NCBI RefSeq assembly: GCF_002896875.1
Contig: NZ_CP023278.1
Location: 6,702,501 to 6,766,500, forward strand
Source of the DNA: Nostoc sp. CENA543
Lineage (GTDB): Bacteria; Cyanobacteriota; Cyanobacteriia; Cyanobacteriales; Nostocaceae
Length of the DNA: 64,000 nt
Direction: 5' to 3'
The notes beneath the pieces are model-generated. The model searched no databases. It saw only the letters and a program-made list of their open reading frames with translations, and was not told where the DNA came from. Shown piece after piece: positions 1,765 to 12,132 of this stretch; the first letter of the stretch is position 1, and every line of letters starts with the position of its first letter. The position numbers and the translations under genes are program-made.

Positions 1765-1880
1765 AGGGACTGGGGACTGGGGATTGGGGACTGGGCAGGG
1801 GGCAGGGGGCAGGGGGCAGGGGGTAGGGGGCAGGGGGCAGGGGGCAGGGGGCAGGGGGCAGGGGGCAGGGGGCAGGGGGA
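1765..1880. repeat. G-rich heptamer STRR, (GGGGACT)n then (GGGGGCA)n
   Basis: About four GGGGACT/GGGGATT-type units are followed by a run of about twelve GGGGGCA heptamers with one T variant. This is the classic short tandemly repeated repetitive sequence class of heterocystous cyanobacteria. The regular G5 runs on the + strand also satisfy the sequence rule for G-quadruplexes. The array begins only a few bases upstream of the trpC start codon. Confidence 0.9.
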
Positions 1881-1904
1881 AAGAACTTAGTATGAATAAG
1901 TATC

Positions 1905-1997
1905 TTTCCACCCTTACACCCCTACACCCTTACACCCTTACACCCTTACACCCCTACACCCTTACACCCCTACACCCTTACACCCTTACACCCTTAT
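1905..1997. repeat. CTTACACC-type tandem repeat
   Basis: The octamer-like unit ACCCTTAC/ACCCCTAC repeats about eleven times and runs right up to the stop codon of lpdA. With the preceding G-rich array it fills almost the whole spacer between trpC and lpdA. Confidence 0.88.
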
Positions 1998-3425
1998 TTA
2001 AACGACTGCCCGTTTATAGGCTTCATCCAACACTTCTGATAGGGTTGGGTGGGCGTGGACTAAATGGGCTAGGGTTTGGACTGTTTGCCGGTTGGCTACG
2101 GCGGCGGATGCTTCGTGGATTAAGTCGGAGGCGTGTAAGCCAAAAATATGTACGCCTAACACTTCTCCGGTGTCTTTGCGGTAGATGACTTTAGCGATAC
2201 CGTCGGCTTCGTTTTCAGCTAAGGCTTTGGAATTACCTTTGAAGTAACTTCTACTGGTAGCGATTTCAAAACCTTCGGCTTGTCCTAATTCTTTGGCGGC
2301 TGTTTCGGTTAAGCCGACATAGCTGACTTCAGGATGGGTAAATGCGGCGGCGGGAATACTGCGATAATCGGCTTTTCTTTCCCGTCCCATGATGTTTTCT
2401 ACAGCGACGATACCTTGGGCGGAAGCTGCGTGTGCTAGCATCATTTTGCCGTTAGCATCGCCAATTGCCCACAGATGGGGGACGACTTCCCCGGCTGATA
2501 AGACTGCCATGCGATCGTCAACCGGAATAAAATTCCGACGGTCAAGTTCTACACCCACAGATTCTAAACCGAGATTTTTGGTAGCGGGGATGCGTCCTGT
2601 AGCTACTAAGCAAGCATCAACTTCAATAACATCGACATCTTCTTTAGTTTTGAAATCTGCCAATTCAATCACTACAGGCGAACCAGGAATTACTTTTTTG
2701 GCGTAGATTCCCACCTTGGTTTCAATGTCGCGGGGTGTAATTAATACCCGTTCTGCGAGTTTCGCAATATCGCGGTCAAACCCTGGCATAAGTTGGTCGA
2801 GGGCTTCAATCAAAGTGATTTCACTGCCCAAAGCTGAGTAAATATCCGAAAATTCTAAACCGATGTAACCACTACCAATAATGGCAATCCATTGTGGTAG
2901 GGTTTCCAGTTTCACAGCTTGATCACTAGTAAAGACGGTTTTGCCATCTACTTCAATTCCTGGCGGTACGAAAGGTACAGAACCAGGAGAAAGAATAATA
3001 TCCTTAGCGGTGATGGTTTTTTCACCACCATCGCCAGTCACCGTCACTTTTTGAGTACCGGCGATTTTGCCCCAACCTCTAATGATATCGACTCCCAGAC
3101 GTTTGAGACTATTCGTTAAATCCCCTTGGATTTTAGAAACTAAATTATTGGCGTGATCTGCGATCGCTTGCCGATCAAATTCCACGCCGCCAATTTGAAT
3201 TCCCAAGGACTTCAGGTGATGGGCATCGCGCAATTCCCGCACACGTCCAGATGCGGCTAACAACGCCTTAGATGGAATACAGCCCCGGTTGACACAAGTG
3301 CCACCCATATCAGCTGCTTCAATAATCGCTGTTTTCAAGCCGCAACCTACGGCGTGTAGGGCTGCGCCGTGTCCCCCTACACCAGCTCCTATAATTACTA
3401 AATCGTAATCAAATTCATGACTCAC
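1998..3425 (-). CDS. lpdA: Dihydrolipoyl dehydrogenase (E3)
   Basis: This flavoprotein reoxidises dihydrolipoamide with NAD+, serving the pyruvate dehydrogenase complex and the glycine cleavage system. The N-terminal FAD fold has GAGVGG (13-18). The redox disulfide motif [13 protein letters not shown] places C44 and C49. A second Rossmann motif (GSGYIG) binds NAD, and the C-terminal dimer interface has HPTLSE with the catalytic pair H459/E464. The 475-aa length is normal and no key residue is missing. The start at MSHEFDYDL puts the FAD motif at the usual distance. It stands alone, with repeat-filled spacers on both sides. A related flavin disulfide reductase is the only alternative, and the motif set fits E3 best. 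Confidence 0.95.
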
Positions 3426-3492
3426 GTTAGTTTCCCCGTGTGCTTCGCATTATCTATTCTCGACTTCACTTGCTCGTAGTGCAACCCCCTTT

Positions 3493-3655
3493 TTGGGGAA
3501 TTGGGGATTGGGGACTGGGGATTGGGGATTGGGAAGATGGGGAGTGTGGGGAGTGTGGGGAGAGAGGGGGGAAAGATTTCTTCCCACACCTCCCACACCT
3601 CCCACACCTTTTTTCGCTCACCCTGCACCCTGCCCCCTGCCCCCCTGCCTCTTTT
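3493..3655. repeat. Composite STRR block (GGGGATT, GGGGAGTGT, CCCACACCT, CCCCCTG)
   Basis: Several short tandem arrays are stacked: GGGGATTGGGGACT units, three GGGGAGTGT units, three CCCACACCT units and a C-rich CCCTGCCCC array. The GTGTGGGGAG and CTCCCACACC parts are complementary and flank about 30 bases, so a transcript through this spacer could form a long hairpin. It separates the divergent lpdA and SWIM genes and must contain or abut their promoters. Confidence 0.85.
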
Positions 3656-3742
3656 ATGGCCGTGAAAGTATTTGCACACTGAACGCTGAACCAGTAATCT
3701 TGATTTAAAATCACCTATAGGATTTTTCCAGGCGATCGCTTA

Positions 3743-5518
3743 ATGTCTTTTCCGAATATTAGTGAATTTACAGTCCGTCGCTATGCTAACTCTAAGTCTT
3801 TTCAACGTGGCGAGGCTTACTTTGAATCGGGTGCTGTTACTAAAGTTACTCAACGCGGACAGCAGTTTCAGGCAGAAGTGGAAGGTCACGAAACCAAGCC
3901 TTATCGAGTTTGCTTGAATTTTGATGACAAGACTGTAACCTTGGCTGACTGTACCTGTGCCTACAACTTTGAGGGTTGGTGTAAACATTTGGTGGCGACG
4001 GCACTGGTATTGATTCGTCAACCAGATATCATTGAGCAACGCCCTACTCTCGAAAAACTCCTCGACCGTTTAGATCATGTGCAGACTCAAAGGTTAATTC
4101 AAGAGTTAGTCGCAGAAGCACCCCAACTGATTGAGATTATCGATCAGCATGTTAGTTGGATGACTAACCCTACACCCAAGCCGTTATCTACCAGCACTGA
4201 AAGACACATTACCGTCAATTTGCCAGCGTTACGGGGGCAAATTAAGCAGATTTTGCGGGAAGCGGTGAATTATTTTGAGGAGGGGTATGAGGAAGACCCC
4301 CTGACGGAAGAATTATTTAGTTTAGTGCAGGGGGCTTTAGAGTTTAACGAACGGGGCGAAAATGATAATGCGATCGCTGTTTTGGAAGTGATTACTGCTA
4401 CCTGTGCGGAAAATTGGGACGAGGTATTAGAATACGGTGCAGACAATGATGAAATCGCCTGGGAATTGAATATTGCTTGGTGTGAGGTGCTTCTTTCTGC
4501 TGAACTTACCCCAGAGGAAAAAGTTGATATTCAAGTTAATTTGGAAGTTTGGCAAGACGAATGGAATACTGATTTTGCTATGGCTTTAGAAGCCTTACGC
4601 CAAGGCTGGGATGAACCACAAATCATCCAGGTACTTCAGGGCAATATCAGTACAAGGGGAGTTTGGGGTCAAGAAATTCCCTATTATGCTGACGATTTAG
4701 CGATGATTCGCTTGAAAATTTTAGAACGGCAAGAACGTTATCAAGAATACCTGTATTTGGCGCAAGCAGAGGGACAAACCCAAGCCTATCTCACCATGTT
4801 AGGACGTTTAGGCAGAATAGAAGAAGCGGTGCAAGCTGCCCAAACGGAAATGAGTTCAATGGAAGAAGCCTTCGCTTTAGCTAAAACCCTAGCTGAACAA
4901 GGTTCATTACCGCAAGCATTAGAAATTGCCCAAACTGGTTTTAGGCTATGGGGTAATTGTCAGTATGCTTTAGGGATTTGGACGTGTGATTTAGCTTTAG
5001 AGTTGCATAATCAGGAAGCGGCTTTATTAGCACTCAAAGCTGCTTTTGAAGTTAAACCCCACTTTGTTGACTATCAAAAAATTGCAGAATTAGCCGGAGA
5101 AAATTGGGAAGTTATTAAACCCGACTTATTAAAAGTTGTCCACAATTGTGATAATTGGGCAATCCAACCAGACAAAGTGGATATACTTTTACACGAAGGT
5201 TTAATTGATGATGCCATTAACACTGTGAGCGAAATCAGTCATTATCATGCAGCCTTAGTTCACCGCGTCATGAAAGCCGCCATTCCTCACAATCCCGACT
5301 GGGTGATAGCCAATTCTCGCCGTCGTGCTGAAAGAATTATGGATGAGGGGAAAGCAGAATATTATAGTGAAGCGATCGCATGGTTAAAACAAACCCGCGC
5401 CGCTTATATAGCATCTGGTAGACAAGCAGATTGGTCGAGTTATCGTGAACAATTAATGGAAATTCACGGACGTAAGCGGAAATTAATGGGGATGTTGAAA
5501 GAACATAGTATGCAGTGA
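3743..5518 (+). CDS. SWIM zinc-finger protein with TPR-like C-terminus
   Basis: The 591-aa protein begins with a SWIM-type zinc finger: C70-x-C72, then C80-x-H82 (ADCTCAYNFEGWCKH). SWIM fingers bind zinc and are found in DNA-interacting or protein-scaffolding proteins. The rest is helical and rich in Ala/Glu/Leu, with repeat-like segments such as 'EEAVQAAQTEMSSMEEAFALAKTL' that resemble TPR/HEAT arrays. No catalytic helicase motif is present, so this is the stand-alone form and not a SNF2 fusion. The start ATG lies just after a HIP1 site and has no strong Shine-Dalgarno. There are no operon partners. The biological role is not known to me; a nucleic-acid or adaptor function is inferred only from the SWIM motif. 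Confidence 0.85.
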   Translation: MSFPNISEFTVRRYANSKSFQRGEAYFESGAVTKVTQRGQQFQAEVEGHETKPYRVCLNFDDKTVTLADCTCAYNFEGWCKHLVATALVLIRQPDIIEQRPTLEKLLDRLDHVQTQRLIQELVAEAPQLIEIIDQHVSWMTNPTPKPLSTSTERHITVNLPALRGQIKQILREAVNYFEEGYEEDPLTEELFSLVQGALEFNERGENDNAIAVLEVITATCAENWDEVLEYGADNDEIAWELNIAWCEVLLSAELTPEEKVDIQVNLEVWQDEWNTDFAMALEALRQGWDEPQIIQVLQGNISTRGVWGQEIPYYADDLAMIRLKILERQERYQEYLYLAQAEGQTQAYLTMLGRLGRIEEAVQAAQTEMSSMEEAFALAKTLAEQGSLPQALEIAQTGFRLWGNCQYALGIWTCDLALELHNQEAALLALKAAFEVKPHFVDYQKIAELAGENWEVIKPDLLKVVHNCDNWAIQPDKVDILLHEGLIDDAINTVSEISHYHAALVHRVMKAAIPHNPDWVIANSRRRAERIMDEGKAEYYSEAIAWLKQTRAAYIASGRQADWSSYREQLMEIHGRKRKLMGMLKEHSMQ

Positions 5519-5696: not shown

Positions 5697-5766
5697 CTTC
5701 AAAACCTTCATTTTTCGTTGATTTTCAAGATATCTAATCTTTAGAATTATCGGAAAGCCTTAGATG

Positions 5767-6900
5767 TTACAGTCTACAAGTATCGATGCGAGAAAAGAGG
5801 CCACAACCCCATCCACGCACTGATCCCCGTCCTAACGCCAACCCCACAAAATATGGCAGGTGTCCTTTAGGGGAAGAGATATCAAAAGTTAAATCCCTAG
5901 CGGATATCCAGTAACCCTTAACTCTACATCCTACGCGATCGCCAAATTTTTCCCAAGCTTCTTTGTAATAATTACCGTCTGGCTTTCCACCAACGCTCAA
6001 ATAAATTTCTTTTTGAACACTGAAGCCAAAATGTCCATTGCTATATTTTGCCCACAGGCGGTCAATTGTGTGGAGGTCTGTACAGGGAAATTTCGATAAT
6101 TCTTCTGCCCTAATCTCGTCACCTTTTTCACGCCCCACTACTTGAAGCATTACTATATAGGTTTCATAGTCTGCTTCTTGCCAATTTTCTGCTGCTAGTA
6201 GGTCGCGCAATCGACTGTAATCTATACCTTTATCTGAGGCTAATTCATTTTGATGTAGTTTTTCAACTTCTTGGTGTTCTTGTTTTAGGCTTTCTACTTC
6301 CTGCTGTCGTCGTCTTTCAGCTTCTTGTTCACGTTGTAGTCTGTCAGTTTCTTGTTGTTTTCTTTGCCTTTGTAACGTCTCTACTTCCTTTTGTTTTTGT
6401 ATTCTATCTATTTCTGGTTCTCGTTGACCTTCTGCTCGTTCCTGCTTGAGTTTTTCGACAGCAGCACGAATACCTTTAGCTACATCCGCGAAAGCTTCAT
6501 CTTGAGTGTGCCAATTTCTTGACACCACAGGTTCAGCATTCTTAGGTAAAGCTTGCAGTTTAGCAAATGGTGCGCCAGCCCAATCAACAGGCCGCAAAAT
6601 TACTGGGATGACGCAAGCTTCACCTTTATCATGCCGTTCTATCGCTTTCTTAACTTCCACATCCCAACAATAATTAGAAGCCAAAAAGTAGGCACTGACA
6701 AGCAACAGAATAATGTCGGCTGTGTTTAAATTGTCGTTAATCTGATCATGCCACTGTTCTCCGGCTCGGATCTCACGGTCATGCCAGCTTGATATTACAC
6801 CCTGCCTTTCCAATATACTCAGGTGGTAAGCTAATTCATCCCGTAGAGTCTCATCTTTGTGAGAGTAAGAAAAGAAAAGCTTGAAAGATTCCTCTGCCAT
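5767..6900 (-). CDS. TIR domain - coiled coil - GUN4 fusion protein
   Basis: Three parts are visible in 377 aa. Residues 7-150 form a TIR domain (KLFFSYSHKDE at the start, then DIILLLVSAYFLASNYCWDVE). E82 sits where NAD-cleaving TIRs carry the catalytic glutamate. Residues 151-222 are a highly charged Gln/Glu/Arg coiled coil. Residues 225-374 match GUN4 (YSRLRDLLAAENWQEAD, FPCTDLHTIDRLW, KYSNGHFGFSVQKEIYLS, KFGDRVGCRVKGYW, DLTFDISSPKGHLP). GUN4 binds protoporphyrin IX and Mg-protoporphyrin and stimulates Mg-chelatase. TIR domains are signalling or NADase modules. The fusion suggests a porphyrin-responsive TIR effector or scaffold. The next genes upstream are hemN, heme oxygenase and hemF, so a tetrapyrrole link is plausible, though about 400 bp of repeats separate them. 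Domain calls are firm; the function is inference. Confidence 0.88.
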   Translation of the reverse strand: MAEESFKLFFSYSHKDETLRDELAYHLSILERQGVISSWHDREIRAGEQWHDQINDNLNTADIILLLVSAYFLASNYCWDVEVKKAIERHDKGEACVIPVILRPVDWAGAPFAKLQALPKNAEPVVSRNWHTQDEAFADVAKGIRAAVEKLKQERAEGQREPEIDRIQKQKEVETLQRQRKQQETDRLQREQEAERRRQQEVESLKQEHQEVEKLHQNELASDKGIDYSRLRDLLAAENWQEADYETYIVMLQVVGREKGDEIRAEELSKFPCTDLHTIDRLWAKYSNGHFGFSVQKEIYLSVGGKPDGNYYKEAWEKFGDRVGCRVKGYWISARDLTFDISSPKGHLPYFVGLALGRGSVRGWGCGLFSRIDTCRL

Positions 6901-7296
6901 TTTCGCGCTCAGGAGTAGGGGAATTCCAATGAAAAAAATATACTATCACGTTGATGGCAAGGGGGCAGGGGGCAGGGAGCAGGGGGAAAGACAGTTGTTT
7001 TGGAGAAAATAAATTGGATAGTTTATTTTCTGGAAGTCCCTGGGATCAATTAGGCTTAGGATAAATTATAGTGTTTTTACTTGATTTTCCTGAGCAGCTA
7101 ACGGTCAGTATTTAATACACTATTTTAACGTGCGCCTCCGTTGGAGACTCACGCTATTTTAGTCTATACACACCAATAAGGTGCGTTATGTTTTGTCTTA
7201 ACGCACCCTAAAGCTAAATGAAGTCCATTGCGAATTGCGAATTGCGAATTGCGAATTGCGAATTGCGAATTGCTTTAATGCTCAATGTCAACTTTT
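6901..7296. other. Repeat-bearing spacer upstream of TIR-GUN4
   Basis: No gene is visible in these 396 bases. They hold a short GGGGGCA array (6959-6982), a repeat-like segment (CGCCTCCGTTGGAGACTCACGC, about 7134-7155), a perfect 9-bp inverted repeat (GGTGCGTTA 7180-7188 with TAACGCACC 7199-7207, 10-base loop) and a GAATTGC heptamer array (7227-7273). The promoter of the TIR-GUN4 gene and the 3' end of hemN must lie here. Confidence 0.7.
7227..7273. repeat. (ATTGCGA)n heptamer STRR
   Basis: Nearly seven perfect copies of ATTGCGA lie just downstream of the hemN stop codon. This is an STRR of the heptamer class. Confidence 0.92.
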
Positions 7297-8694
7297 TCAA
7301 ATGGCTTTAGAAAAACCATTGCTTGTTCGTTCGCGCAGATAAACATCAAATACAGATGCAATGTTACGGATGAGTAATCTTCCAGTTGGTGTGACTTCGA
7401 TATGATTGGGAGAAACTTTAATTAAACCATCGGCTTCTAATAGTCGCAGTTGTAATTGTTCTTTTTGCAAATATTCGGCAAAATCACTATCAAAATGCAG
7501 ATGATATTTTTCTTCAATGCTATCTGGTGAAAGGTGAAATTGACACATCAATTCCATAATGATGGTACGGCGGATGATATCATCTTGATTTAGTTTTACC
7601 CCTTTCTCAATGGGTAATTGGTCACTATTAATGGCTAGATAGTAATCTTTTAATCTTTTGTGATTCTGCACATACACATCATGCAGCATCGTAATTGAAC
7701 TCATACCAAAGCCTAATAAATCAGACTCCGGTTTAGTGGTATAACCTTGGAAGTTGCGATGTAGTTGACCTTTTTGTTGGGCGATCGCTAATTCATCATT
7801 CGGTTTAGCAAAATGATCCATCCCAATAAAAACATAGCCATTGCTGCTTAATTCTTCAATTGACATCCGCAAAATGTCTAGTTTTTCCGCCGCTAATGGT
7901 AATGCGTCTTGAGGAATTAAACGTTGAAGCGGTTTTAACCAAGGAACATAAGCAAAATTAAATACAGCAATGCGGTCTGGGTTGAGTTGAATTGTTTTGT
8001 GGACTGTATTTTTAAATGTTTCTAAAGTTTGATGAGGTAAACCATAAATCAAATCAACGTTAACGCTAGTAAATCCAGCATCACGCACCCAATCCATTAC
8101 CTGAAACAGCATTTCTTCTGGCTGTACCCGGTTAACAGCTTGCTGTACCTGAAAATTAAAGTCTTGAATGCCAAAACTAATGCGATTAAAACCTAAATCT
8201 TTCAACGCAAAAAGATAATCTCTATCTAAAAATCGGGGATTAACCTCAATAGAAATTTCTGCATCATCCTCAAAGTCAAAACAATGATTCAAGGCGTACC
8301 AGAGAGTTTCAAATTGATGTAAAGATAAATAGTTAGGAGTACCGCCACCCCAATGCAATTGTTGTACAGTTCGTTCATGGTGAATCAAAGATGCTACTTG
8401 CTGAATATCACGAATTAAGTAATTTAAATAAGGTTCAGCAAGTTTTTTATTGGGAGTAATGACAGTATTACAGCCACAGAAATAACAAGCACTCTCACAA
8501 AAGGGAATATGACAATACAAAGACAGGGGAGTTTTCTTATAATTGCCGACAGCGATCGCAGTTTTAAAGTCAGCTTGTGTAAAATCCTCTGTTAACTCCG
8601 TTGCTGGCGGATAACTAGTATAGCGGGGTAAAGGCTGATCATATTTTCGCAGTAAGTCAGCATCAAATTTAACGGTTTGTGACAAAACGTTCAT
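7297..8694 (-). CDS. hemN: Oxygen-independent coproporphyrinogen III oxidase
   Basis: HemN is a radical-SAM enzyme that decarboxylates two propionates of coproporphyrinogen III to give protoporphyrinogen IX without O2, in the heme and chlorophyll pathway. The N-terminal PRYTSYPPA signature of true HemN is present. The Fe-S motif is C66-x3-C70-x2-C73 followed by C75, as expected. GGGTPNYLS and the HemN C-terminal domain follow. I place the start at ATG 8694 (MNVLSQTV), giving 465 aa; an upstream ATG at 8718 would add eight residues. A large palindrome (8731-8781) lies directly upstream, then heme oxygenase on the same strand. The O2-dependent hemF is two genes away, so the block holds both forms of the step, matching low-oxygen tetrapyrrole clusters known in Synechocystis. 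Confidence 0.94.
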   Translation of the reverse strand: MNVLSQTVKFDADLLRKYDQPLPRYTSYPPATELTEDFTQADFKTAIAVGNYKKTPLSLYCHIPFCESACYFCGCNTVITPNKKLAEPYLNYLIRDIQQVASLIHHERTVQQLHWGGGTPNYLSLHQFETLWYALNHCFDFEDDAEISIEVNPRFLDRDYLFALKDLGFNRISFGIQDFNFQVQQAVNRVQPEEMLFQVMDWVRDAGFTSVNVDLIYGLPHQTLETFKNTVHKTIQLNPDRIAVFNFAYVPWLKPLQRLIPQDALPLAAEKLDILRMSIEELSSNGYVFIGMDHFAKPNDELAIAQQKGQLHRNFQGYTTKPESDLLGFGMSSITMLHDVYVQNHKRLKDYYLAINSDQLPIEKGVKLNQDDIIRRTIIMELMCQFHLSPDSIEEKYHLHFDSDFAEYLQKEQLQLRLLEADGLIKVSPNHIEVTPTGRLLIRNIASVFDVYLRERTSNGFSKAI

Positions 8695-8730
8695 AAAAAT
8701 TGCTAATTTGTAATTCATTATTAAAAGTTC

Positions 8731-8781
8731 GTAGTAAGGACTTTAGTCCTTAGAATTTTTCAGGACTAAAGTCCTTACTAC
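8731..8781. repeat. Perfect 20-bp inverted repeat between hemN and heme oxygenase
   Basis: The arm GTAGTAAGGACTTTAGTCCT (8731-8750) is exactly complementary to 8762-8781, with an 11-base loop. Each arm is itself near-palindromic (AAGGACT..AGTCCTT). The same core recurs at 37041-37066 and 56244-56269, so this is a dispersed element and not a locus-specific operator. In the heme oxygenase-hemN transcript it would form a very stable hairpin and could attenuate or process the message. Confidence 0.9.
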
Positions 8782-8823
8782 AAACTTGTCAAAACTATTT
8801 TTCTAACTCAGCACTCAACACTT

Positions 8824-9573
8824 TTAAATGCTGTAATTAAGTTCTTTATTTTGTTCAGGAGTATGTTCTGTACTACCTGGTTTGTTTTGGCGCGTCATCA
8901 AATCGAAAATGTGATCACCAACTACAGCTTTGACATCGGCTTCTAATTCATGAACGACATCACGATTTAGGTTAAAAGCATAGTTAGCTTCGTCTACGAT
9001 TTTTTGAATCATGGCTTCATCTATAGCCAAAGAATTCAAAGCTTGACGGTACTTTTCTTTAAATGCTCGTTTAGCTTCTGGGGTAGGAATTTCTGCAAAT
9101 TCGTGCATTGCAGTACCTTGATCTGCGGGTAAATTCATTGCAGAACGGGCAATATTTCGTAATGCTTGACCACCGGATAAATCTCCCATGTAACGGGTGT
9201 AAGCATGAGCAATTAATAACTCAGGTTGCGTATTAGCAACTTCCCGTAGGCGATTAACATAAACTTTTCCAGCCAGGGAAGGTGTAATTTCCTCTCGCCA
9301 ATTCTCACCGTAATAATATGCTAAATCTTTTTCTAAATTCGCTTGACGATTCAACTCAGGAAAGTATATCAATCCCACAACTGGATGATTTTGATATAGT
9401 TCTAATGATGCTTCTAAAACAGAGTAAACAAAGTAAAGATCAGCTAATAATTTCCTAAAAAAGCTCTTTTCGACAATCCCTTTCAGGAAACATTTCATAA
9501 ACGCAGTATTTTCTGCCAAAGTGTGGGAATGCTTTGTTCCTTCCCGTAACCGTACATCTAGATGACTACTCAT
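8824..9573 (-). CDS. Heme oxygenase (biliverdin-forming)
   Basis: Ferredoxin-dependent heme oxygenase opens heme to biliverdin IXalpha, CO and Fe2+, the entry to phycobilin and phytochrome chromophores. The proximal heme ligand is H17 in REGTKHSHTLAEN. The distal-helix signature GDLSGGQALRNIA is intact. The length of 249 aa is typical for the cyanobacterial soluble enzyme with a short polar tail. The gene lies between hemF and hemN on one strand. By analogy with Synechocystis, where a second heme oxygenase sits with hemN and a cyclase isoform and is induced at low oxygen, this is likely the low-O2 isoform (HO2/PbsA2 type). The sequence alone cannot fix which isoform it is, so I give no symbol. 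Confidence 0.93.
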   Translation of the reverse strand: MSSHLDVRLREGTKHSHTLAENTAFMKCFLKGIVEKSFFRKLLADLYFVYSVLEASLELYQNHPVVGLIYFPELNRQANLEKDLAYYYGENWREEITPSLAGKVYVNRLREVANTQPELLIAHAYTRYMGDLSGGQALRNIARSAMNLPADQGTAMHEFAEIPTPEAKRAFKEKYRQALNSLAIDEAMIQKIVDEANYAFNLNRDVVHELEADVKAVVGDHIFDLMTRQNKPGSTEHTPEQNKELNYSI

Positions 9574-9779: not shown

Positions 9780-10823
9780 CTAAACCCAATCTTTGGGTTG
9801 AAGAAAAACTTGTGTCAGTTCAGCTTCCGGACTTCCTGGTTCTGCTTGATAACAATATTCCCAACGTGCTAGAGGTGGTAAGGACATGAGAATCGATTCT
9901 GTTCGTCCTTTGGTTTGTAGCCCGAATACTGTTCCTCGGTCGTAGACTAAATTAAACTCGACGTAACGACCACGGCGATATAGTTGGAAATTACGCTGGC
10001 GATCGCCATATTCTGTTTCTTGTCGTCGTTCTACAATAGGCAAGTAAGCGGGTAAGAAAGCTTGACCACAGGACTGCACAAACGCAAAGATATCTTCCCA
10101 ATTGCGTCTGATATTTCCCACTTTTTGGCTATAAATTGCGGCGGGACTATCTGTTTGTGTACCGACGTACAGCTTACCGCTAGCATCTTGATAATCAAAG
10201 AAAATACCGCCAATACCTCGCTGTTCTTGACGATGGCGTAAATAAAAGTATTCATCACACCAGCGTTTAAAAGTTGGATAATATTCTGGATTATGAGCAT
10301 CACAGGCATTTTTCAGTGTTCTGTGAAAGTGAACAGCATCCTCAGCGAAAGCATAGTATGGTGTTAAATCAGCACCGCCACCAAACCACCAGATAGGGCC
10401 AGCTTCAAAGTAGCGATAGTTGAGATGTACTGTGGGTACATAGGGATTGCGGGGATGCAATACCATTGATGTACCTGTGGCAAAAAACTCATGTCCGGCT
10501 GCTTCTGGACGTTGCGCCACAATCGAAGCTGGGAGACTATTTCCCCAAACTGCGGAAAAGTTCACTCCTCCTTGTTCAAATACTCGCCCTTCCCGAATGA
10601 CGCGGGTACGTCCTTCACCGCCTTCTTCTCTTTCCCAATAATCTTGATGAAAACTGGCTTCTCCGTCAATTTGCTCTAACCCTTGGCAAATCTCATCCTG
10701 TAAGTTCTGCATGAATTGTTGCACTCTTTCGCGTGAATCTTGGGGAATGCCGTTATTCAGTGATGCTAGCCATGTGGTGTGATTTGCAGATTCTTGCAGA
10801 GAATTATCGGAATGACGAGCCAT
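9780..10823 (-). CDS. hemF: Oxygen-dependent coproporphyrinogen III oxidase
   Basis: HemF carries out the same decarboxylation as HemN but uses O2. Conserved stretches are visible: [42 protein letters not shown] and [18 protein letters not shown]. The length of 347 aa is normal and the ATG start gives the usual N-terminal region before [10 protein letters not shown]. It is the first gene of a minus-strand series hemF, heme oxygenase, hemN and diverges from acsF. The 253-bp divergent spacer has a 22-bp palindrome 42 bp upstream of this start codon. A hemF beside an otherwise low-oxygen set is understandable if the block serves microoxic cells, where residual O2 is still used by heme oxygenase and AcsF. 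Confidence 0.95.
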
Positions 10824-10886: not shown

Positions 10887-11076
10887 TTTGTTTTTGATCA
10901 GAGTAGTTTCAAAACTTAATAAATTCTCTAAACCCTATATATCAAAGCTTTTTATTCTCTGGTTTGGGTGGATTGCTTCTGACTTTGCTGAAGGAATGTA
11001 AAGAGGGCTAGCAAAAGAACTCTAATTATCATAACTTGATAGCTATGAAATTATTTACTTGATTACCGCATTACTT

Positions 11077-12132
11077 ATGGTTAACACCCTACCCAAACCA
11101 GGAATTAAAACTCCCAGCCAAGAAACTATACTCACGCCTCGGTTTTATACTACAGATTTTGAAACCGCCGCCAATTTGGATTTATCTGCTCAAGAAACGG
11201 AATTACAGGCGATGCTGGCGGAAATGCGCGCAGACTACAACCGCCATCATTTTGTGCGGGATGAGGCGTTTGATAAGTCTTGGGAACACATTCAGGGTGA
11301 AGCCAAACAATCGTTTATTGACTATTTGGAACGCTCATGTATTTCTGAGTTTTCCGGCTTCTTGCTGTTTAAGGAATTATCCCGCAAACTCAAAAACCGC
11401 AGTCCCTTACTGGCAGAGATGTTTCAACTGATGGCGCGGGATGAAGCCCGTCATGCGGGATTTCTCAACAAAGCAATGGGCGATTTTAAACTATCCTTAG
11501 ATTTAGCCACGGTAACAAAAACCCGCACCTATACATTTTTTCCGATTGAGTGGGTGCTATACACCGTTTATCTATCAGAAAAAATCGGCTATTGGCGATA
11601 CATCATTATTTACAGACATCTAGAAAAGCACCCAGAAAACCAGTTTTACCCCATCTTCCGTTACTTTGAGAGTTGGTGTCAGGATGAAAACCGCCACGGG
11701 GATATATTCAAAGCCCTGTTACGTTCGCAACCGCAACTATGGAAAACCTGGAAAGCTAGGCTTTGGAGTCGCTTTTTCTTACTGTCGGTGTTTGCTACCC
11801 ACACCATGACTGTTCATGAACGGACTGGTTTTTACAAGTCCTTGGGACTAAATGCGACGGAATTTGACCGTCAAGTGGTGGAAAATACCAATGAAACGGC
11901 CGGACGTGCCTTTCCTGTGATGTTGAATACCGAACATCCCCAGTTTTTCCCCCGCTTACAACGCTGTGCAGGTTATAACTTAAAGATTGCAGAGATTGAG
12001 GGCAGTTCTCAACCCAAATTTGTGAAGCTAGTTCGCAAACTCCCTTTAATTGCAGCCATTGTCTGGAATCTGCTGTTAGTTTTCCTGATTAAACCCGTAG
12101 ATACAGAGGCTTTGCGGGGAACTGTGCGTTAA
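11077..12132 (+). CDS. acsF: Mg-protoporphyrin IX monomethyl ester (oxidative) cyclase
   Basis: AcsF/ChlA is the membrane-associated diiron subunit that uses O2 to form the isocyclic E ring of chlorophyll. The two carboxylate/histidine iron-binding motifs are visible as ARDEARHAGF and CQDENRHGD, in a helical 351-aa protein of usual length. I chose ATG 11077 (MVNTLPKPG), the family's usual N-terminus, over a TTG 18 bases upstream. The gene is divergent from hemF, heme oxygenase and hemN. This linkage suggests it is the microoxic cyclase isoform (ChlA-II type), although the sequence alone cannot prove which isoform this is. Expression probably depends on the palindrome in the shared spacer. Confidence 0.93.
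   Translation: MVNTLPKPGIKTPSQETILTPRFYTTDFETAANLDLSAQETELQAMLAEMRADYNRHHFVRDEAFDKSWEHIQGEAKQSFIDYLERSCISEFSGFLLFKELSRKLKNRSPLLAEMFQLMARDEARHAGFLNKAMGDFKLSLDLATVTKTRTYTFFPIEWVLYTVYLSEKIGYWRYIIIYRHLEKHPENQFYPIFRYFESWCQDENRHGDIFKALLRSQPQLWKTWKARLWSRFFLLSVFATHTMTVHERTGFYKSLGLNATEFDRQVVENTNETAGRAFPVMLNTEHPQFFPRLQRCAGYNLKIAEIEGSSQPKFVKLVRKLPLIAAIVWNLLLVFLIKPVDTEALRGTVR

Follow-up and report, generated by a model that had tools for sequence, protein, structure and literature searches.

Conflict-system proteins in which TIR, protein kinase, caspase or trypsin domains are fused to GUN4 are in print (Kaur et al. 2020, PMC7159879; PMC8195603), and GUN4 has been proposed, citing Davison et al. 2005, to be an allosteric regulator of the attached enzymes, TIR included (Kaur et al. 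2020, PMC7159879). The passages of these two papers that were consulted assume that tetrapyrroles are bound and mention no hypervariable tail, 3' element or linkage to RAYT genes. The variable proteins of cyanobacterial diversity-generating retroelements (DGRs) are multidomain effectors with a hypervariable C-terminal ligand domain and dispersed paralogues, and IS200/IS605 transposases lie near some of them (Vallota-Eastman et al. 2020, PMC7517822). RAYT, or TnpA-REP, proteins are Y1 transposases (PMC6006769, PMC3733652), and domestication has been suggested for the Y1 enzymes of class 2 (PMC6006769). Here we analyse a gene for a TIR-coiled coil-GUN4 protein in a 64,000-nucleotide stretch of Nostoc sp. 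CENA543 (NZ_CP023278.1, positions 6,702,501 to 6,766,500; the window), together with its relatives. It belongs to the fusion class of Kaur et al., with a proposed allosteric sensor. Neither that class nor the idea of an effector regulated by tetrapyrroles is new to the literature; the fusion protein alone would be ordinary. The novelty lies in a hypervariable segment near the end of the protein, termed V, in a conserved DNA element that follows it and in the pairing of such genes with a RAYT-like gene, none of which was found described in the literature searched (subscription papers and preprints lay outside the search).

The hypervariable segment and the conserved 3' element

Past the GHLP motif, the window protein and TIR-GUN4 proteins with 66–73% identity to it elsewhere have unrelated tails. 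After V the DNA is conserved again as a 34-nt element, TCTCGC(A/G)TCGAGACTTGTAAA(C/G)TGTAACATNTAA, which is read in three frames (tails LFSR..TCKL, SSLASRLVNCNI and LLSRRDL), each ending in its own stop; in the window copy the frame used ends LFSRIDTCRL. The element is present in 70 of 118 family genomes with up to 3 mismatches allowed, and a reversed control pattern gave no match in the family genomes. Across the phylum it was found in 39 of 292 genomes, other families included, linkage to GUN4 being unchecked for the new ones. Six of the 14 GUN4 genes in the window's genome bear it, no copy was found outside GUN4 genes in that genome at ≤3 mismatches, and viral contigs held no exact match to a 23-base pattern. 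In the loci examined, a GUN4 domain lies no more than 900 nt upstream of 115 of 119 distinct elements. These 119 come from 60 regions chosen for the purpose and from loci matched in other searches; they cover part of the element sites in the family, which number at least as many as those listed. To arrive at the 108 V segments used below, we set aside 4 of the 119 elements for want of a GUN4 domain upstream, 6 of the remaining 115 in which no GHLP-type anchor was recognised (at least one of them, L175, solely through the overlap handling of the search pattern) and, of the 109 then left, the second of two copies of an element duplicated in L024. Each species was represented by one genome, and the shuffles and p-values ignore relatedness.

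The length of V ranges from 30 to 205 nt (median 63) and leaves a remainder of 0, 1 or 2 on division by 3 in 50, 19 and 40 cases, respectively (n = 109). Its last bases, next to the element, are partly conserved, and 9 nt there were trimmed for the codon, amino-acid, dinucleotide and plasmid-copy comparisons. At all GUN4-core identities binned up to 0.9, V is 0.44–0.46 identical between loci, as against 0.436 when shuffled; for the 120 pairs whose GUN4 DNA is 80–90% identical the value is 0.45, the shuffled level (of the pairs whose cores are less than 0.6 identical, 15% were sampled). Over the same bins identity in the element plus 41 nt is 0.70–0.78, with 0.78 at core identities of 80–90%. 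Above a core identity of 0.9 there are six pairs, of which two keep V (0.92 and 0.87) and four do not (0.51–0.59). In the two tandem copies L186 and L199 of genome G024, the DNA on either side of V is nearly the same, and the differences lie in V itself and in two short patches ahead of it. On plasmid NZ_CP060823.1 of Cylindrospermopsis curvispora GIHE-G1, three GUN4-RAYT pairs have V segments that are 16–31% identical and GUN4 parts that are 86–93% identical, and the same copies are 98–99% identical over the 879 nt from an element variant to the start of the RAYT gene. As a control, the tail of the element-less GUN4 protein L058 is alike by eye in three of four relatives (L157–L159), the fourth (L160) having diverged. 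V has a strand-asymmetric base composition, with G and T at.33 each, A at.18 and C at.155; in the core A is.31. For the V of the window, the only one so searched, no second copy was found in the genome at E values up to 1.

On this evidence V is translated and under selection, because in-frame stops number 0 in 2227 codons versus 252 in 4335 codons off-frame (p 4e-47). None of the 108 segments has an in-frame stop, and in 500 shuffles the number of segments with one averaged 67 and never fell below 55. Cys is likewise avoided, at 45 of 2227 codons in frame versus 181 of 4083 off-frame non-stop codons (p 4e-7). When compared with stop-free shuffles, V is low in Cys and Val and high in Phe and Trp; when compared with the off-frames of the same DNA, Cys alone is clearly different. 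Otherwise V resembles random DNA from which only open frames were kept, because its codon-position make-up is close to that of stop-free shuffles. The dinucleotide signature of untemplated synthesis is weak (RR+YY.547 vs.508).

No sign of recombination from a shared pool of V segments was seen: only the two pairs at 0.92 and 0.87, both with cores above 0.9, are high and the next reach 0.70, in a comparison that included 15% of the pairs with cores below 0.6. Old element copies and GHLP duplications were rejected as general sources of V, with 1 and 2 cases, respectively, in 108. L267 has a duplicated GHLPFDIIYL stretch, and L024 (G103:C1:1168992-1169076) has two copies of the 3' element, separated by 51 nt, at a single GUN4 gene, as though a fresh end had been added next to an older one.

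The RAYT-like gene and the DGR of the window's genome

At L100, from Nostoc sp. PA-18-2419, a 273-aa Y1_Tnp protein is encoded convergently, 67 nt from the GUN4 stop. This RAYT-like gene (L100:9604-10425) matches Pfam Y1_Tnp with E 1.4e-18, and its product has the HUH motif, a single Tyr and the motifs NHVH and YIHANP. The gene has the domain and class motifs of RAYT transposases (PMC6006769, PMC3733652) but differs from them in that its match to NCBIfam REP_Tyr_transpos (E 4e-19, 69 bits) is below the cut-off of 80, in that no general hairpin was found downstream of the element and in often being convergent with GUN4. Among the 38 best family matches to the L100 protein, 30 loci were studied with their flanks. 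GUN4 is convergent with the RAYT-like gene in 20 of these 30, with ends 22–340 nt apart (an overlap of 22 nt at L263), and the remaining 8 matches, judged by coordinates, are all convergent with an element or a GUN4 match. Seen from the side of the element, convergent RAYT homology is near 42 of the 106 elements that have at least 300 nt downstream, and homology in the same orientation is near none (0/106). The block formed by element and RAYT gene on NZ_CP060823.1 is younger than the GUN4 genes, to judge from its 98–99% identity as against 86–93% for the GUN4 parts and from the differing upstream parts of these genes. Plasmid NZ_CP060823.1 (L288 and L272–L274) carries at least three GUN4-RAYT pairs, with GUN4 on different upstream regions, two of them trypsin-like by eye.

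The genome of the window also has a complete-looking DGR (L300), which encodes a 561-aa TIR-coiled coil-FGE-sulfatase/CLec protein, an Avd-like protein and a reverse transcriptase. A repeat search run as a positive control recovered its 129-nt pair of variable and template repeats, with 14 of 15 differences at template adenines. The TIR-coiled coil N terminus of the DGR protein is 54% identical to residues 1–214 of the window protein, and the DGR protein, with its DGR-diversified C-type-lectin-type domain, is a precedent for a TIR protein with a hypervariable sensor. Features of a DGR target were not found for the GUN4 genes: there is no template repeat for the window's V, the length of V is not constant, and six GUN4 tails of this genome gave 11-nt or repeat-type matches to L300, none of them in the template repeat. 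Compared with DGR variable proteins (PMC7517822), the GUN4 proteins have GUN4 in place of the C-type lectin domain and a V that is free in length and frame, with no template repeat found and no adenine signature, and their genes are linked to a Y1 transposase gene rather than to a reverse transcriptase. Related TIR modules in one genome thus carry two kinds of hypervariable sensor, one driven by a retroelement and the other apparently not.

The window protein, its neighbourhood and its relatives

The features of the window and of the DGR locus are listed in Table 1. The first-pass annotation, made from the sequence alone, had described one protein that joins a TIR domain with a likely catalytic glutamate, a coiled coil and a complete GUN4 domain. 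Both Pfam domains lie in a single open reading frame (ORF), residue 82 is Glu, and in an AlphaFold2 model, with a mean predicted local distance difference test (pLDDT) score of 86.6 and a predicted template modelling score of 0.50, the two domains are separated by a long helix. The GUN4 domain is, however, incomplete, because the Pfam match stops at profile position 125 of 141. Tail residues 351–361 have pLDDT values below 50. E82 is nearly invariant, being conserved in at least 90% of a 26-member alignment, and it follows an S..YC motif, the motif that precedes the glutamate in TIR domains of the catalytic type. A PADLOC profile of the ThsB-type TIR matches the window TIR with E 2.2e-57, and the CRISPR-associated TIR Cat1 is the only TIR among the sequence matches with solved structures. 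The best Foldseek match of the protein is 4xkc, GUN4 with Mg-deuteroporphyrin; TIR structures rank below GUN4 structures among the matches and support the TIR fold. The PADLOC model PD-T4-6 matches the GUN4 part, residues 193–376 (window 5770-6900, minus strand), a sign that the profile may itself extend into a GUN4-like C terminus. By eye, the TIR half of the gene is nearly identical in DNA to L087 8001-9146 of Nostoc sp. CMAA1605, but the half with the coiled coil and GUN4 has clearly diverged further from that copy; this difference suggests that the GUN4 part may have been exchanged between paralogues.

Table 1. Positions of the features discussed; numbers refer to the window except for the last row, where genes are numbered within the locus
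Feature	Position	Strand	Basis or remark
591-aa ORF, convergent neighbour	3743..5518	+	
Conserved 34-nt 3' DNA element (TCTCGC...CATCTAA)	5760..5793	-	Includes stop codon 5767-5769
TIR-coiled coil-GUN4 gene, 377 aa	5767..6900	-	ORF, Pfam domains, AlphaFold2 model
Hypervariable segment V, residues 350-369, 60 nt	5794..5853	-	Between GHLP and 3' element
GUN4 domain, residues 222-351	5848..6237	-	Pfam (profile positions 2-125 of 141), above gathering score
Predicted long helix / coiled coil, residues 133-217	6250..6504	-	AlphaFold2 model
TIR domain, residues 9-115	6556..6876	-	Pfam TIR_2, above gathering score
E82 codon	6655-6657	-	Within NYCWDVEVKKA
Tandem CGCAATT repeats	about 7227-7270		Between hemN and TIR-GUN4 gene; near synteny breakpoint
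hemN, upstream neighbour	7297..8718	-	TIGR00538 equivalog, Pfam; adjacency not conserved
Heme oxygenase gene	8824..9573	-	Pfam; adjacency not conserved
hemF	9780-10823	-	Same strand as hemN, further upstream
acsF	11059-12132	+	Beyond hemF
DGR locus L300 (G000:C1:2485500-2494500)	1768-3453, 3562-3933, 3942-5012		Three genes

Residues F196, N211 and R214 of Synechocystis GUN4 have been tied to porphyrin or bilin binding (PMC8967248, PMC10156173). Mutation of F196 or R214 lowers porphyrin binding (PMC8967248); the N219G variant of Chlamydomonas GUN4 loses bilin binding and keeps porphyrin binding, and GUN4 paralogues without the bilin motif are known (PMC10156173). As read from the sequences, the equivalents of F196, N211 and R214 in the window GUN4 are L, V and A, and Phe is found at the F196 position in 3 of 107 aligned GUN4 cores. 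After GHLP the window protein continues with YFVGLALG, versus LSNQLRG in the canonical GUN4 of the same genome; an unrelated tail stands in place of the canonical part that bears R214 and the bilin motif LxNxLR. The window protein shares the fold and core motifs of canonical GUN4, the Mg-chelatase cofactor, and differs from it in having no GUN4_N match, no LxNxLR motif and no F196 and in being fused to TIR.

The same annotation had placed hemN and the heme oxygenase gene next upstream on the same strand, which is correct (Table 1; 396 nt separate hemN from the TIR-GUN4 gene), and had proposed as a check whether such fusions recur beside tetrapyrrole genes; at the loci examined this neighbourhood is not conserved. 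Homologues of hemN, heme oxygenase, hemF or acsF (E 1e-20), the tetrapyrrole genes searched for, were found near TIR-GUN4 at 0 of 15 other loci, with flanks of up to 8 kb or more, shorter at some loci; the census of loci covers only genomes that have one of two exact TIR peptides. Conversely, no TIR or GUN4 match was found at six related hemN loci (L064–L069). In the related genome G079 the 591-aa ORF and lpd lie on the same side of the syntenic copy L063 as in the window, with two small ORFs between the 591-aa ORF and TIR-GUN4, and the hemN-heme oxygenase-hemF-acsF cluster is on a different contig; in L087 the 591-aa ORF is about 2.5 kb from TIR-GUN4. The adjacency in the window therefore looks like the product of a rearrangement, and a tetrapyrrole operon was rejected from the synteny of G079, the hemN loci and the 15 TIR-GUN4 loci. 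Another TIR-GUN4 gene of G079 (L096) shares a contig with the hemN cluster, about 50 kb away.

The genome of the window encodes 14 GUN4 domains, one of which is the canonical GUN4 (GUN4_N and LSNQLR). The other 13, the window gene included, are joined to TIR (three), protein kinase (two), caspase, a trypsin-like protease and AAA_35, and five are on regions without a confident known domain. Among related loci, L098 is a TIR-GUN4 gene split into two ORFs. A pair of neighbouring tandem TIR genes recurs in several Nostocales and relatives (L112, L113, L115, L116, L118, L120, L121, L124–L128 and L138). The same type of TIR-coiled coil N terminus occurs without GUN4 at L101–L107, L110 and L114; a domain scan of L101, L103, L104 and L114 gave FGE-sulfatase in three and WD40 repeats in L114. 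In a table of mutations in phage-resistant cyanobacterial substrains (PMC10811720), the genes listed for substrain RE2 include one with a GUN4 domain and a serine/threonine kinase, which is a lead for a link to the phage response.

Origin and possible role of the segment

The reading that we prefer, with nearly as much belief as doubt, is that cyanobacterial effector-GUN4 proteins are receptors in which a tail at the ligand site is diversified by a process linked to the element and to RAYT. A conserved GUN4 scaffold would carry the hypervariable tail where canonical GUN4 has its bilin and porphyrin loop, and since the variation sits at this loop V may set or tune the ligand of the receptor. 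V would be made on single-stranded DNA by the element-linked process, the most likely route being nicking and joining by RAYT at the element followed by untemplated or error-prone fill-in. That such cutting, joining and one-strand synthesis makes V is a possible but doubtful proposition; it fits the strand asymmetry and free length of V and the young age of the element-RAYT block. Products in frame would then be retained by selection as sensor variants. Binding of a ligand through GUN4 and the tail might alter the oligomeric state of the coiled coil, and this change could switch the TIR domain, a probable NADase, into an immune-like or stress response; the window copy would be a resident variant without a RAYT gene of its own. 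In a broader form, receptors would be diversified without a retroelement: a RAYT-like enzyme, encoded tail to tail with the effector-GUN4 gene, opens the gene at the element, a random G/T-rich V of any length is built in, the stops in three frames end it, and selection for open frames yields a set of receptors with TIR, kinase, caspase or protease effectors and randomised ligand tails. This form we regard as conceivable, with doubt outweighing belief. In V(D)J recombination, N-region diversity consists of random-looking, frame-free, G-biased junctions between conserved segments. V resembles such junctions by analogy only, the enzymes being unrelated, and the logic of a repertoire with randomised tails is comparable to that of the junctional diversity of immune receptors.

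Several observations weigh against this reading. GUN4 was not found at 9 of the 30 loci with RAYT-like genes, two of which are close to a contig end, and at L281 the two genes are adjacent in a different arrangement. RAYT homology is missing from the downstream DNA examined (382–1100 nt) at 64 of 106 elements and from the window copy, the genome of which has two weak RAYT matches (best E 8e-8), and one of the three RAYT genes on NZ_CP060823.1 is interrupted. Among loci outside the 108 segments, L091 ends inside V and has a degraded element, and L093 and L263 have no recognised element. A hairpin, which RAYT would be expected to bind and which was seen by eye in several copies, was ruled out by count as a general part of the element: perfect stems of at least 6 bp occur downstream of it in 13 of 108 cases versus 8.5 in shuffles (maximum 18), and RNAalifold predicted no pairs. 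Two orthologue pairs keep V, as given above, one of them with small in-frame indels like those of gradual change. Stops and Cys aside, the amino-acid make-up of V is near that of random DNA, which offers no sign of specific binding by the tail.

The main rival is that V is the scar of a mobile element, a RAYT-like unit that inserts into or converts the 3' ends of GUN4 genes, leaving junction debris that has no role in sensing, with the stops in three frames rendering the insertion harmless. We consider it unlikely, though a serious candidate. It accounts for the element-RAYT block, which on NZ_CP060823.1 is nearly uniform in three copies and younger than the GUN4 genes, and RAYT pieces are common beside the element. 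It does not account for the missing stops: debris without function should not be purged of stops, which could do no more than trim a useless tail, yet no V has a stop where 67 are expected, and Cys is avoided in frame only. Leftover host coding DNA, for its part, would show codon-position structure, and V shows little beyond the avoidance of stops. Evolution at an ordinary but fast pace, through relaxed constraint or strong diversifying selection and with no dedicated mechanism, is improbable. Loss of the bilin motif in paralogues is known (PMC10156173) and the pairs L170/L234 and L226/L228 change gradually, but the borders of V are sharp, V is at shuffled identity beside cores that are 80–95% identical, the conserved DNA element is used in three frames, and the element-less tail of L058 stays alike in three of four relatives by eye.

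The first-pass annotation had suggested an NADase or signalling module gated by porphyrin, through which porphyrin overload or photo-oxidative stress would act on dormancy, defence or gene control. Its premise of a TIR effector joined to a sensor is reasonable, the glutamate of catalytic type being kept. The best structural match is GUN4 with Mg-deuteroporphyrin, the same idea has been published, and porphyrin binding may outlast the loss of the Asn, because Chlamydomonas N219G loses bilin and not porphyrin (PMC10156173). The equivalents of F196 and R214 are lost, however, the loop is replaced by V, and adjacency to hem genes is seen at none of the 15 other loci; a link of the window protein to porphyrins or tetrapyrroles is not supported, and we hold gating by porphyrin to be quite improbable. 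Less probable still is a DGR-type retroelement that acts in trans on the GUN4 3' ends, with the element as its homing (IMH, initiation of mutagenic homing) site. A bounded V followed by a conserved 3' DNA site resembles a DGR variable region, and the genome has a DGR; against this, the element was not found outside GUN4 genes in this genome (≤3 mismatches), the window's V, the one V searched, has no second copy, V is free in length, six GUN4 tails of this genome have no match in the template repeat, and differences between close pairs are not restricted to one base.

If the diversification of GUN4 tails is real and targeted, multicellular cyanobacteria would gain a second route besides DGRs by which to randomise the sensor ends of effectors such as TIR and kinase proteins. 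It would also give the RAYT-like group a role, and the building of receptor repertoires in bacteria would become a testable question.

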